Part shown: positions 35,282 to 41,295 of the stretch, in pieces | How positions within the stretch are numbered: position 1 is the first letter of the stretch | Layout: each line of letters opens with the position of its first letter | Assembly: GCA_913009825.1 (NCBI GenBank) | Contig: CAJVYQ010000046.1 | Span: 1 to 41,295 of the forward strand | Reading direction: 5' to 3' | Length of the DNA: 41,295 bases | From: an uncultured Deferribacteres bacterium | GTDB taxonomy: Bacteria > Zhuqueibacterota > JdFR-76 > DREG01 | Program-made: the position numbers and the translations under genes | The notes under the pieces: generated by a model | Databases searched by the model: none | What the model was told of the DNA's origin: nothing | What the model saw: only the letters and a program-made list of their open reading frames with translations

Positions 35282-35392
35282 GCCTGATGGTTAACCAACA
35301 GGCTGAAAAATGGAAGCGGCATAAATAGCGCTGCGTTTGCAGGACGCTTTAGCGTTCTTCCTTTATTTAGCCTCGTGGTTTACCACGGGGCG
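35282..35392. repeat. Structured repeat, copy B1 of a 111-bp tandem pair
   Basis: A leading hairpin GCCTGATGGTTAACCAACAGGC-like (35282-35303) is followed by a long stem (35301-35316 with 35357-35372), an inner AGGACGCTTTAGCG loop region, and a terminal hairpin CCTCGTGG-TTTA-CCACGGGG (35371-35390). Stem positions differ from copy A (1-92) in compensating pairs. There is no ORF. Confidence 0.75.
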
Positions 35393-35503
35393 GCCTGATG
35401 GTTAACCAACAGGCTGAAAAATGGAAGCGGCATAAATAGCGTTGCGTTTGCAGGACGCTTTAGCGTTCTTCCTTTATTTAGCCTCGTGGTTTACCACGGG
35501 GCG
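35393..35503. repeat. Structured repeat, copy B2 of the tandem pair
   Basis: Identical to copy B1 except one base (T at 35442 for C at 35331), so 110 of 111 positions match. The duplication is recent, or conserved by gene conversion, or created by an assembly join. The rest of the gap (35504-35679) is AT-rich and holds nothing I recognise. Confidence 0.78.
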
Positions 35504-35679: not shown

Positions 35680-36645
35680 ATGAAGCTGATAATTCAATTA
35701 CCCTGTCTAAACGAAGAAGAGACGCTCCCACAAACCATCAGAGATTTACCTGATGAAATTCCCGGTATCGATAAAATTGAAACCCTGATCATCGATGACG
35801 GCAGCACGGATCGCACGGTCGAGGTGGCAAAAGAGCTTGGCGTTAACCACATTGTTCGGTTTACCAACAACAAAGGGTTGGCGGAGGCTTTTATGGCCGG
35901 GATCAATGCTTCTTTAAATTATGGCGCTGATATCATTGTAAATACAGATGGAGATAATCAATATTGTGGCAGTGATATCCCCAAATTGATTGAGCCAATT
36001 TTAAAAGGCAAGGCGGATATGGTAATTGGAGACCGACAGGTTGATAAAATTTCCCATTTCTCCTGGCTTAAAAAGATGTTACAAAAATTGGGCAGTTGGG
36101 TTGTAAGGCAAGTCTCCGATACAAACATTCCGGATACGACCAGTGGTTTTAGGGCCTTAAGTAAAGAAGCTGCATTACAGATCATGGTAATTTCAAAATT
36201 TACTTATACTTTAGATACGATCATTCAGGCAGGGAAAAAGAATCTTGCGATCGGTCATGTACCGGTTAGGACAAACAAAAAACTAAGAGAGTCTCGTTTA
36301 TTTTCAAGTATTCCATCTTACTTGAAGCGTTCTATTATTACTATTTTTCGAATTTATACGGTTTATGAACCATTAAAGATGTTTGCATATATTGGTGGAA
36401 TTATTTTTACATTTGGCATGGTTATCTCTCTTCGATTTTTGTATTTTTATATCGCAGGTAATGGCGGCGGACATGTTCAGTCTCTGATTTATGCCGCTGT
36501 GTTTTTCATTATTGGATTCCAGGTGATGGTAATGGGGTTGATCGCAGATTTGATTGGCACTAATAGGAGGTTGGTAGAAAACATTTTATATCGGATTCGA
36601 AAATACGATACTTATAAAAATAAATCGAAGGGTTCAGAAGATTAA
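35680..36645 (+). CDS. Glycosyltransferase family 2 with C-terminal membrane helices
   Basis: 321 aa. GT-A domain: IIQLPCLNEEETLP (4-17), LIIDDGSTDRT (36-46) and metal site NTDGDNQY (88-95). Two C-terminal helices (about 232-254 and 268-290) are typical of polyprenyl-phosphate-type GT2s. The gene stop TAA overlaps the ATT start proposed for the next gene (ATTAA). No strong ribosome binding site is seen. Substrate unknown. Confidence 0.88.
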   Translation: MKLIIQLPCLNEEETLPQTIRDLPDEIPGIDKIETLIIDDGSTDRTVEVAKELGVNHIVRFTNNKGLAEAFMAGINASLNYGADIIVNTDGDNQYCGSDIPKLIEPILKGKADMVIGDRQVDKISHFSWLKKMLQKLGSWVVRQVSDTNIPDTTSGFRALSKEAALQIMVISKFTYTLDTIIQAGKKNLAIGHVPVRTNKKLRESRLFSSIPSYLKRSIITIFRIYTVYEPLKMFAYIGGIIFTFGMVISLRFLYFYIAGNGGGHVQSLIYAAVFFIIGFQVMVMGLIADLIGTNRRLVENILYRIRKYDTYKNKSKGSED

Positions 36646-37960
36646 GAAAGTTTTAGTCATTACATATTACTGGCCGCCTGCCGGAGGGCCTGGCGTACAA
36701 CGTGTATTAAAATTTGTAAAGTATTTTCCAAATTTTAACTGGCAGGCTATCATTTTATCTGTTAATAATGGGGAGTATCATGCAATTGATCATTCCTTAA
36801 AAAAAGAAATTCCGGACGGTACACTTGTCTATAGGGCTAAAGCTCTTGAACCGCATAGTATCTATAAAAAATTTATTGGGATGAGAGAAAAGGAAAATGT
36901 TCCTGTAGCAGCTATAACGGAAAAGAGCGTTGGTTTTAAGAAGAAGATATCTTTTTGGCTTAGAGCAAATCTTTTTATCCCAGATGCAAGAATCGGGTGG
37001 GTGCCGTATGCAGTAGCACTGGGGAAAAAGATTTTAAAGATTCATGATGTCGATTTGATTTTTTCTTCATCCCCTCCTCCATCCGCACATTTGGTCGCGA
37101 AAATATTGTCTAAATTAAGCGGATTAAAGTGGATCGCTGATTTCAGGGATCCTTGGACGGGTATTCATTATTTTGAAGATTATAATCGATTTTTTATATC
37201 AAAAAAATTAGATGAATACCTTGAAAAGTCAGTACTAAAAAATGCAAATGGTGTAACTTCTGTAAGTTTTTTAGACATAAAAGAGGATTATGAAAAAAAA
37301 GTCCCAGGTCGAACCAAATATTTCTATATTCCAAATGGATATGATGAGGAAGATTATAAAAATTATTTACAGAATCATAAAAATAAAAGTAATGATCACT
37401 TCATAATTTCTCATGTTGGAACAATTGGAAAAGAGCGAACTCCAATTCAATTTTTTAAAGCAATTAAGACGTTAAGTGAGAAGAAATTCATTGATGAATC
37501 CAATTTTTCTATTGTTTTTATTGGTAAGATCGAAACATCGGTGATTGTTATGTATAAAAAATTTAAAATTGAAAAATATATAAAACTTGTTCCATATATA
37601 CCCCACAATGAGGTTGCAAAAGTTTTTTTAGAAACTTCTGCCATTCTTTTATTGATATCAAATTCTAAATACAGTAGAAGAATTCTTCCGGGGAAAACTT
37701 TTGAATATTTGAGGACAAATAAGCCTTTGATAGTTTTTGGACCTGAAAATGGTGAGGTTGCAAAAATTTTAAAAGAGACAAAAAGTGGAGAAATTATAGA
37801 TTATGAGGATTATGAAAAAACCTGTAACCACCTAAAAAAGCTCATCGAAAATTATCGGGAAAATAAAACCATTGAATATAGAACAAATAGTTGTTTGGAG
37901 AGCTACGAAAGAAAAGAGTTGACTAAAAAGTTGGTCTCAGTTTTTAATTCATACACATAA
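36641..37960 (+). CDS. Glycosyltransferase family 4, probable non-standard ATT start
   Basis: 439 codons if read from ATT 36641. The frame is open from there and encodes the expected N-terminus IKKVLVITYYWPPAGGPGVQ, the P-P-A-G-G acceptor loop of this GT4 group. No ATG, GTG or TTG occurs in frame until ATG 36881, 80 codons later, which would delete the first Rossmann strand. The C-terminal domain has HVGTIGKERTPIQFFKAI and GKTFEYLRTNKPLIVFG, the E-x7-E-like region. GAAGGG (36627-36632) may be the ribosome binding site. An ATG-to-ATT mutation or a sequencing error is possible. The gene is much more AT-rich than the rest of the window, suggesting acquisition from another source. Confidence 0.78.
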   Translation: MKKVLVITYYWPPAGGPGVQRVLKFVKYFPNFNWQAIILSVNNGEYHAIDHSLKKEIPDGTLVYRAKALEPHSIYKKFIGMREKENVPVAAITEKSVGFKKKISFWLRANLFIPDARIGWVPYAVALGKKILKIHDVDLIFSSSPPPSAHLVAKILSKLSGLKWIADFRDPWTGIHYFEDYNRFFISKKLDEYLEKSVLKNANGVTSVSFLDIKEDYEKKVPGRTKYFYIPNGYDEEDYKNYLQNHKNKSNDHFIISHVGTIGKERTPIQFFKAIKTLSEKKFIDESNFSIVFIGKIETSVIVMYKKFKIEKYIKLVPYIPHNEVAKVFLETSAILLLISNSKYSRRILPGKTFEYLRTNKPLIVFGPENGEVAKILKETKSGEIIDYEDYEKTCNHLKKLIENYRENKTIEYRTNSCLESYERKELTKKLVSVFNSYT

Positions 37961-37986
37961 CATGTGCCATCTCGGGAGAATAAAAA

Positions 37987-39651
37987 ATGACCGAGTTTAA
38001 ATCTGAAAATTCTAATTACAAAAGGGTATTTGTTGTTATAGTAGTTTTATCAGTTATTCTCGCCGGTAGCTTTCTGAGATTTTATAATCTCGGGAAATTG
38101 GATTTGTGGGTTGATGAAACTTATCATTTGTATTCAGCAAAATCTCTAATGGAGAATGGCGAACCAACGTTGCCATCAGGGATGAAGTATTCACGGGCAC
38201 CTGTTTATACCAGACTTGTGATTACTTCATTTAAAATATTTGGAATTGATGAATTTTCTGTAAGATTCCCCAGTGCCTTATTTGGGGTTCTAAACATTTT
38301 GGTGATTTTTTTAATTGGAAGAAGTATTTTAGGAACCCGTATTGCAATGATAGCTGCTTTCTTTCTGGCATTTTCTTATTATTCAATTGCTTGGTCAAGA
38401 ATCTCCAGATTTTATACATTGATGCAATTTGCCTATATGTTATCTGTATTCTTTTTTTATAAAAGTTATGAGATGAAAGACAATTCTAAACCCCGGGTAA
38501 ATGGTGTCCATTATTTTAAAGATCTAAATATTAATTATTTTTGGTTAATAGTATCAGGATTGTTTTTCATCTTAAGTTATTCCACTCAGCTTATTTCAGC
38601 AATGTTGTTTCCTGCTATTCTAACTTATATTTTTATTATGCTCTTATTATATTGTTACAGTAATCATCTCGTAGCTGCGCTCAAAAGTAAATACTTTATT
38701 TCCTTTGTTTTTTTTATTGCCCTTTTTGTTTTTGGAGTCTTATTTTTCGATCTGGGCGGCTTGATAAAATGGGCATTCAATTATCGGCCGGATTGGGCAA
38801 ATACCGCAGCGTTTAGAAATAAATATTTTTATTATAATTATTTTACGTCGTCCTTGATTTTTCCACTCAGTGTGTTTTTCATGATGGGAACATATTATGT
38901 TTTCACCCGATTCCATAAAGGTGCTTTTTATATATTCATTAATTTTTTCATACCGATAGCAATTGCATCATTATTTTTCTCTTACAAATTAAAAAATTAT
39001 GTTTATCATATTTATCCATTTTATCTTCTAATTGGAGCATTTGGAATTGTAAATTTTTATGATCACGAGATTGAAAATATCAAACAATATATTTCAAAAC
39101 TTAATACTCCTTTTAAATCTTCCTTACCAAGAATTTCAAAAGTATTTCTTGTTCTTTTATTATGTGGATGGATTCCTGTCACGATTTGGTTTAAGGTGGG
39201 AGTTAAAATGCCATGGCTGAAACCAGGCGAATACAATCAAGTTTATTCTCATCGAAGCTGGAAATGGGCTGCGGATTATGTTAACGAAAACCGGAATGCA
39301 CAGGATGTTGTGATATCAACCGTCCCTTTAACACTTATGTTTTATAATCTTGAAAGTGATTATAATTTAAATAACGGGTATAACGATAGTGCAACAAAAT
39401 TGGAATATTTTAATAATGATGGAAAATTATTTGATGTTTATTCTGGAAAACCATCAATAGCAAATTTAACGGAGCTAAAACAGATTATAAATATGAATCC
39501 ATCGGGTTGGTTAGTCCTTGATACATATCGATTTTCTTTAAGGACATGTGTACCGCAAGATGTGGCGGATTTTATTAAAAATGAATTGAAGATGGAAAAT
39601 AAAGATAAATTTAATACGATTTTTATTTACAAATGGAGTTCTTCTGATTAG
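37987..39651 (+). CDS. GT39/ArnT-like polytopic membrane glycosyltransferase
   Basis: 554 aa with about ten to twelve membrane helices. The luminal motif LDLWVDETYH (38-47, Asp43-Glu44) after the first helix is typical of the PMT_2/GT-C fold, which uses polyprenyl-phosphate sugars. The loop RFPSALFGVLN and a second block SRISRFYTLMQF also fit. A soluble C-terminal part (about 430-554) lies outside the membrane. GGGAG upstream supports ATG 37987. It may use the sugars made by the GT2 enzymes. A Wzy polymerase is a weaker alternative because the D-E motif fits GT39. Confidence 0.8.
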   Translation: MTEFKSENSNYKRVFVVIVVLSVILAGSFLRFYNLGKLDLWVDETYHLYSAKSLMENGEPTLPSGMKYSRAPVYTRLVITSFKIFGIDEFSVRFPSALFGVLNILVIFLIGRSILGTRIAMIAAFFLAFSYYSIAWSRISRFYTLMQFAYMLSVFFFYKSYEMKDNSKPRVNGVHYFKDLNINYFWLIVSGLFFILSYSTQLISAMLFPAILTYIFIMLLLYCYSNHLVAALKSKYFISFVFFIALFVFGVLFFDLGGLIKWAFNYRPDWANTAAFRNKYFYYNYFTSSLIFPLSVFFMMGTYYVFTRFHKGAFYIFINFFIPIAIASLFFSYKLKNYVYHIYPFYLLIGAFGIVNFYDHEIENIKQYISKLNTPFKSSLPRISKVFLVLLLCGWIPVTIWFKVGVKMPWLKPGEYNQVYSHRSWKWAADYVNENRNAQDVVISTVPLTLMFYNLESDYNLNNGYNDSATKLEYFNNDGKLFDVYSGKPSIANLTELKQIINMNPSGWLVLDTYRFSLRTCVPQDVADFIKNELKMENKDKFNTIFIYKWSSSD

Positions 39652-39660
39652 AGTGATTAT

Positions 39661-40440
39661 ATGTTTTTAAAAGGATTAGTCTATTTGTCATTTGGCCAGC
39701 TTGTTTTTATCCTTTGTGGATTTACATTAAATTTTGGATTGGCAAGATATTTCGGGCCTGAGTTATTTGGTACATATAGCATTGTTATTTCAATATTGGT
39801 ATGGGTTAAATTTTTTACTATTTCAGGTATACCAGTGGGATTACAAAAGTTCATTCCTGGTAATCTTGATAAAGTTTATAATATTAAAAAATCTACTATA
39901 AAGATTCAGATAATATATTCTTCAATTGTATTTTTATCCTTATATGTTGGCAGTACATACATTGCGAAGATATTTAATCAACCCTCCTTAGCTGTTTATT
40001 TGAAGATAGTATCGTTTGATATTATTTTTTATAGTATGTTCCGGTATTTTGTGGGATTTCAAAATGGATTGCAACGTTTCAATTATCAGTCAACAATAGT
40101 TATTTTTTACTCAATTTGTAAATTAATCGCTACTTTTTTACTTGTCTTCTTGGGGTTTTCATTAAAAGGAGCATTAGTGGGTAATATCATAGGCTCTTTC
40201 ATTGCTTGTCTTATTGGGTTTAAATTTGCAAAAATCAAAAAAACCAACTCTATTTTTAATATCCGGAGGATTATTTATTTCGCCATTCCTAATGTTTTTT
40301 ATAGTGTTCTATTCAATTTATTTTATATTGATTTAATCCGAAAGATGACCATAAACTATGTTCTATTTTTTATTAATAAAAATTATATTTTAAGACAATA
40401 TTTCCGACAACGCCATCCAATGGAGCATATAATTCATTGA
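39661..40440 (+). pseudogene. Wzx-type flippase (MOP/PST family), truncated by a junction
   Basis: 259 codons; full flippases are about 420-500 aa. The first part is convincing: FGQLVFILCGFTLNFGLARYFGPELFGTYS, eight or so hydrophobic helices, and the GFQNGLQRFNYQS loop. Near residues 220-228 (FNLFYIDLI) the family pattern stops and the frame runs on into sequence that is the antisense of a TonB-receptor gene. The final residues are thus not flippase. Either a real rearrangement or, more likely, an assembly chimera within roughly 40340-40373. The gene would normally export the lipid-linked repeat unit. Confidence 0.75.
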
Positions 40441-41270
40441 ATACAGGATTATTTGAAGGAGGATTAATAATGTTTTCATATCTTGTTTGTCTTACATCCA
40501 GAATATTTTCCACGTTCAGGGCAATCGTTAATTGACCGAACTCTTTTAGTGCCAAAGCATCGAAACGCCAATAGTTAGTTGTTTTATTTCCGTTTTCCAG
40601 GTACTGATTTCCAAAGTAAAATGATTCGATACCGACTTTCCAACCTTCTTCATCATCTTCATAAAAAAGCGTGATTGCCAATCTGTTTTGCGGCGCCAGT
40701 TCGAGAGGTTTGTTATCATCATAAGTTTTGCGTGCATTTATATGAGTATAATCCATATATAAAACAAACTCATCGAGCGTTGCACTGATAATCGTATTCA
40801 ATCCTTTGCTTTGAATGATGCCGTTTGCATTTTGATAGAACACCGTTTGATTTATTAATGAATCAGAATTAGCAATAACGGGATTGTAAACGTTTGTTAG
40901 AAAAAATGATTGATTCACCGATAAAAACAATTCATCCGAAACCGGAATTTTAAAGTCCAGGTCCCAATTTATACTCGCTGATTTTTCCGCTTCTAACCCG
41001 CATAGGGGCTTCACATTCTGATAGCGTGTTCTTTCGGCATCGTCGGTAAAAGGCGTTGGGATTTTATATCCCAAACCGCTGCTTATACGAGTGAAAAAAT
41101 TATCAGTAAAATGATACTTTACTGCTAATCGGGGTAGGAAAAAGCTTCCGTATTCTTTATTGTAATCAAATCTCGCTCCCGGTTCCAGTGAAAGCTTTTT
41201 AGCAAGCGCCCAGTTATCCTGTAAAAAGACACCGACAGTTTTGTGGTTATAATCAAGCAAAGTTTGTTTT
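40373..41270 (-). CDS. TonB-dependent receptor, C-terminal beta-barrel fragment
   Basis: About 299 codons of the barrel end. Alternating strands and TonB-receptor phrases are visible: GVFLQDNWALAKKLSLEPGAR, ISSGLGYKIPTPF, NAGIIQSKG-like segment (NANGIIQSKGLNT) and the end LNVENILDVRQTRYE... with C-terminal KYNFY, whose last Tyr is the aromatic signal for BAM-dependent insertion. The N-terminal plug is missing because the contig ends. An apparent start reading MCSSDL is adapter, not protein. Ligand unknown. Whether this gene truly neighbours the polysaccharide locus is doubtful. Confidence 0.88.
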
Positions 41271-41295
41271 AGATCGGAAGAGCACACGTCTGAAC
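41271..41295 (+). other. Illumina TruSeq adapter remnant
   Basis: The last 25 bases start AGATCGGAAGAGCACACG and continue as in the TruSeq read-1 adapter. This is not genomic DNA. Translated in reverse it gives the artefactual N-terminus MCSSDL. Confidence 0.98.

Follow-up and report, generated by a model that had tools for sequence, protein, structure and literature searches.

The window analyzed here is the whole stretch of 41,295 nucleotides, a contig of an uncultured Deferribacteres bacterium. Two glycosyltransferase genes, one of type GT2 and one of type GT4, follow each other on its forward strand and have a single base, T36643, in common. This base is the last letter of an ATT codon that probably starts the GT4 gene and the first letter of the GT2 stop codon (Table 1). 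Two tandem 111-nt units, 99% identical and each containing a terminator-like hairpin, occupy positions 35282–35503 between an epimerase-type gene and the GT2 gene.

Downstream of the glycosyltransferases, a Wzx-type flippase gene (39661–40440) has about 220 matching residues before it stops, and it enters the end of a TonB-dependent receptor gene (40373–41287, minus strand) in antisense. Either the flippase gene is truncated or there is a chimeric join near 40370. The GC content drops from about 42% to 30% over the glycosyltransferase and flippase genes (36000–41000), compared with 43% in the genome sample, and this fall suggests that they are acquired or variable surface-polysaccharide genes. 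The contig end (41271–41295) reads agatcggaagagcacacgtctgaac, which is Illumina adapter sequence remaining in the assembly; the assembly is therefore not flawless.

Table 1. Features of the GT2/GT4 junction in the window, and other genes of the same genome with a near-cognate start
Feature	Position	Strand	Basis or remark
GT2 glycosyltransferase gene, 321 aa	35680–36645	+	PF00535, E=1.3e-24
In-frame TAG, upstream bound of the GT4 frame	36575–36577	+	ORF inspection
Shine-Dalgarno-like GAAGGG, 8 nt before ATT	36627–36632	+	Duplex energy
Probable ATT start codon	36641–36643	+	Faces the initiator Met of homologues
TAA stop of GT2, T36643 common to ATT (ATTAA)	36643–36645	+	
N-terminal 80 codons, lost with the first ordinary start	36641–36880	+	Conservation, fold
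Full-length GT4/GT-B glycosyltransferase, 439 aa	36641–37960	+	PF00534, AlphaFold, Foldseek
First ordinary start, ATG, unlikely to be the true start	36881–36883	+	Without Shine-Dalgarno; within conserved domain
infC	C44:25880 (L037 1234–1761, G000:C44)		ATT behind GGAGG
TIGR04076 protein	C6:16087 (L131 16087–16380)		ATT, Shine-Dalgarno GGGAGGT; nearest relative has ATG at that residue
Calcium/sodium antiporter	C9:14947 (L146 14947–15954)		ATT with Shine-Dalgarno; GTT directly before, alternative start
Sir2-type deacylase	C13:80903 (L205 903–178)	minus	ATA with Shine-Dalgarno

The N-terminus of the GT4 glycosyltransferase

Direct reading of the GT4 frame (36578–37960) confirms the earlier note in finding no ATG, GTG or TTG before ATG 36881. 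The 101 codons between the upstream stop and this first canonical start are the maximum in the genome sample (1861 gene calls, 2.41 Mb), in a list restricted to coding-like frames 120 or more codons long. The same note had placed the natural start at ATT 36641, overlapping the preceding TAA as ATTAA, with GAAGGG upstream. The coordinates of the overlap are right, the motif is present, and the choice of ATT is backed by homologues, Shine-Dalgarno strength, predicted structure and the genome itself, as described below. Read from this codon, the product of the frame is (I)KKVLVITYYWPPAGGPGVQR.

Homologues of the GT4 protein (29–47% identity, nearly all from the same phylum) give alignments that begin at residue 1–3 of the ATT-started protein, and in a 17-sequence alignment the ATT-encoded position lies opposite Met in 13 of 16 homologues. 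The claim of a conserved N-terminus upstream of 36881 holds: identity to homologues is 53% at residues 2–80 versus 32% over the remainder, and the first 80 residues contain 8 of the 28 invariant alignment columns. Eighty conserved residues thus precede the codon at 36881 and, as had been expected, are lost to standard gene callers, making this gene a clear case of the cut that a restriction to ATG, GTG and TTG can produce. The start codons of homologues, which the earlier note had named as a check, support the position of the start but not ATT itself. All 36 homologous loci have a canonical start in the interval from −6 to +3 codons relative to the ATT (at that exact position in 14), and ATT is the start in none of the 36, ATG, GTG or TTG being used instead. 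Given this usage, the ATT is private to this genome and not a regulatory element that the glycosyltransferase has conserved.

The GT4 protein matches Glycos_transf_1 (PF00534) with E=2.4e-8 and 34.2 bits, the curated cut-off being 26.4. Its AlphaFold model (mean pLDDT 86.7) comprises two Rossmann-like domains, with the first β-strand at the N-terminus (residues 2–8). According to this model, a start at ATG 36881 would remove β1-α1-β2-β3 of the first Rossmann domain. A sequence search of solved structures with the GT4 protein returned no match, whereas a fold search of the model with Foldseek matched GlgM, MshA, BshA, PimA and other GT4 enzymes with E about 1e-14. These four named enzymes have the GT-B fold and the GT4 retaining family in common with the window glycosyltransferase, despite identities of about 10–15%.

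The duplex energy of GAAGGG, −5.1 kcal/mol, matches that of a typical ATG start of the genome (median −5.35). ATG 36881 has no Shine-Dalgarno sequence: its value of +2.0 kcal/mol is weaker than those of 97% of background positions. No 16S rRNA gene was found in the assembly, and the anti-Shine-Dalgarno core was therefore assumed in calculating these energies. Unlike the signals at other known AUU/AUA starts, that of the GT4 ATT is ordinary and not extended, which counts against an ATT start. RNA structure around the GT4 start is nothing special (z −0.13).

Near-cognate starts elsewhere in the genome

The infC gene of this genome begins with GGAGG CTGCCA ATT AGT AAA GGA, and no ordinary start would give full IF3. 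Across the phylum, 40 of 51 infC loci lack a canonical start within −8 to +6 codons, and 37 of those 40 have ATT, ATC or ATA at −1 to +1, usually behind a strong Shine-Dalgarno sequence. ATT or ATC appears from these loci to be the rule for infC in the phylum, which makes it probable that IF3 autoregulation via a rare start codon is present there.

Genes with a coding signal upstream of their first ordinary start were sought by a coding-potential survey of 2.41 Mb (47% of the genome; 1861 gene calls). The survey recovered prfB (L106 19400–20469, G000:C11) with its typical programmed +1 frameshift site, AGGGGGTACCTTTGA, and is therefore able to find true anomalies. Near-cognate starts were found in 5 of the 1861 gene calls (about 0.27%), namely those of GT4, infC and the other three genes in Table 1. 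This suggests that genes starting at near-cognate codons make up roughly 0.3% of the genome's genes, similar to the 0.25% that start mapping in Caulobacter gave for other near-cognate starts (PMC4117421). In the TIGR04076 protein, the antiporter and the Sir2-type deacylase, the near-cognate codon lies no more than one or two residues from the point where the family profile begins. With infC counted, at least three or four genes besides GT4 appear to start in this way in the genome. The statement that ATT starts are very rare, with infC as the known case, stands as to rarity but not as to infC being alone, given pcnB, cvfC1 and others.

Three hits of the survey were excluded because they are split or fragmentary genes: a histidine kinase (C13:50623/51757; L156 10623–12095), an ADOP-family permease (C30:22480; L188 2480–3757) and the C-terminus of a glycoside hydrolase (C17:62937; L210 2230–2937, minus strand). 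These fragments are possibly frameshifted or decayed. The hit at C6:12065 was likewise left out of the near-cognate list, as unassigned.

A genome-wide test found no enrichment of Shine-Dalgarno sequences at ATT codons (3.2%, versus about 4% in the background and 33% at ATG), so ATT starts are at best rare. The value at ATC codons is slightly raised, at 8%, largely via positions adjoining ATG starts. Near-cognate starts in this genome are rare individual cases, and the start-codon rule is unchanged.

The shared base and alternative explanations

The C-termini of GT2 homologues (60–72% identical) lie at a median distance of 3 residues from the GT2 stop (range −8 to +35); 5 of 29 end 26–35 residues later. 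A G at 36643 would abolish the GT2 stop, adding 32 unrelated residues as the frame is read. T36643 corresponds to the expected end of GT2, and a simple ATG-to-ATT base-call error is therefore less likely, though not absolutely. An ATT start followed by an AAN codon always yields TAA in that frame, so the ATTAA overlap by itself is no special signal; what sets this locus apart is that GT2 in fact terminates at the resulting TAA. Through a G-to-T change at 36643, GT2 may have acquired the stop it has now while the GT4 start was weakened, with ATT replacing ATG. In relatives, no conserved order of the GT2 and GT4 genes was seen.

It is likely that the GT4 gene is intact and that its translation starts at the near-cognate AUU 36641. 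It is unlikely that a sequencing, assembly or consensus error hides an ATG or other canonical start in an ordinary gene. Relatives do have ATG at this position, ATT is one substitution away from it, and adapter sequence persists at one contig end. However, T-to-G would destroy a stop that agrees with the ends of GT2 homologues, and the genome's other near-cognate starts are confined to ATT and ATA instead of being a random mix of ATG neighbors (P about 0.002–0.02, depending on the genes counted). There is a smaller chance that ATT is a recent start-loss mutation in a gene that is poorly expressed or becoming a pseudogene. The codon being private to this genome fits such a loss, and the low GC content and the truncated downstream flippase suggest a locus in flux, yet 439 codons are open, every invariant residue is kept and the Shine-Dalgarno sequence is intact. 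As near-cognate initiation still gives some protein, start loss shades into initiation at AUU.

Two further alternatives concern how ribosomes reach the frame. Initiation at another non-canonical codon in frame (ATA 36620, AAG 36638 or 36644, or ATC or ACG further up) is very improbable: additional near-cognate codons are present in 36578–36641, but ATA 36620 lies upstream of the Shine-Dalgarno sequence, and only at ATT do a suitable spacing from it and alignment with the Met column coincide. Least credible is entry by a +1 frameshift from GT2, producing a GT2-GT4 fusion. Although GT4 lies in frame +1 relative to GT2, the frames overlap at 36578–36645 and prfB of the same genome uses +1 frameshifting, GAT-TAA-G re-pairs poorly in +1, no slippery codon of the CTT/TTT type is found at the stop, and no homologue is a GT2-GT4 fusion. 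The Shine-Dalgarno sequence and the aligned Met position also make a frameshift unnecessary.

Initiation at AUU and known systems

If translation of GT4 starts at AUU 36641, GAAGGG would recruit 30S subunits or hold ribosomes that have just terminated on GT2. Initiator fMet-tRNA would then read AUU with a third-base mismatch, so that full-length enzyme with an N-terminal Met would be made at reduced yield. In Staphylococcus aureus in poor medium, AUU/AUA starts reach about 10% of AUG (PMC13009471). Discrimination against near-cognate starts is the role of IF3 (PMC5472188), and GT4 yield should for this reason follow IF3 activity up and down, as it does in the case of infC. The ATTAA overlap would permit reinitiation by ribosomes terminating on GT2. 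Translational coupling at overlapping ATGA/TGATG pairs is described as established (PMC6728339), and we infer that it may also operate at ATTAA.

AUU starts are reported as established for Escherichia coli infC and pcnB and have been inferred for two lepA genes (PMC1780047), while S. aureus cvfC1 starts at AUU and ccpN at AUA (PMC13009471). GT4 appears to be an additional case of the type established for infC and pcnB, and its mechanism would not be new. The infC genes of E. coli and of the phylum resemble GT4 in having a Shine-Dalgarno sequence followed by AUU in place of AUG, and in being missed by callers limited to ATG, GTG and TTG. In infC, however, the rare start is conserved among orthologues over wide distances and serves autoregulation, whereas that of the window GT4 is private and belongs to a polysaccharide-type glycosyltransferase. 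The Shine-Dalgarno sequence of infC in this genome (−9.3 kcal/mol) is also stronger than that of GT4. It is tempting to speculate that infC, GT4, the TIGR04076 protein, the antiporter and the Sir2-type deacylase form a small set of unrelated genes with AUU or AUA starts whose output is jointly set by the level of IF3, although we consider this doubtful. Such a set would be an IF3-controlled group hidden from callers that accept only ATG, GTG and TTG, and IF3 control of other AUN-start genes, if real, would widen the reach of a type of regulation described for few genes.

The other known systems resemble GT4 in part. E. coli pcnB likewise has an AUU start on a gene other than infC, and its expression is reported to be limited by that codon (PMC1780047); the pcnB start was demonstrated experimentally, whereas that of GT4 is deduced from sequence. 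S. aureus cvfC1 and ccpN (PMC13009471) are, like GT4, ordinary genes with near-cognate starts, but their Shine-Dalgarno sequences are extended and conserved, in contrast to the ordinary one of GT4, whose start overlaps the upstream stop. Streptomyces sigR resembles GT4 in having a non-canonical start on an operon gene, in this case a GTC repressed by IF3 (PMC5472188); it differs in codon and in being a regulatory gene, and its IF3 sensitivity is genetically proven, that of GT4 proposed.
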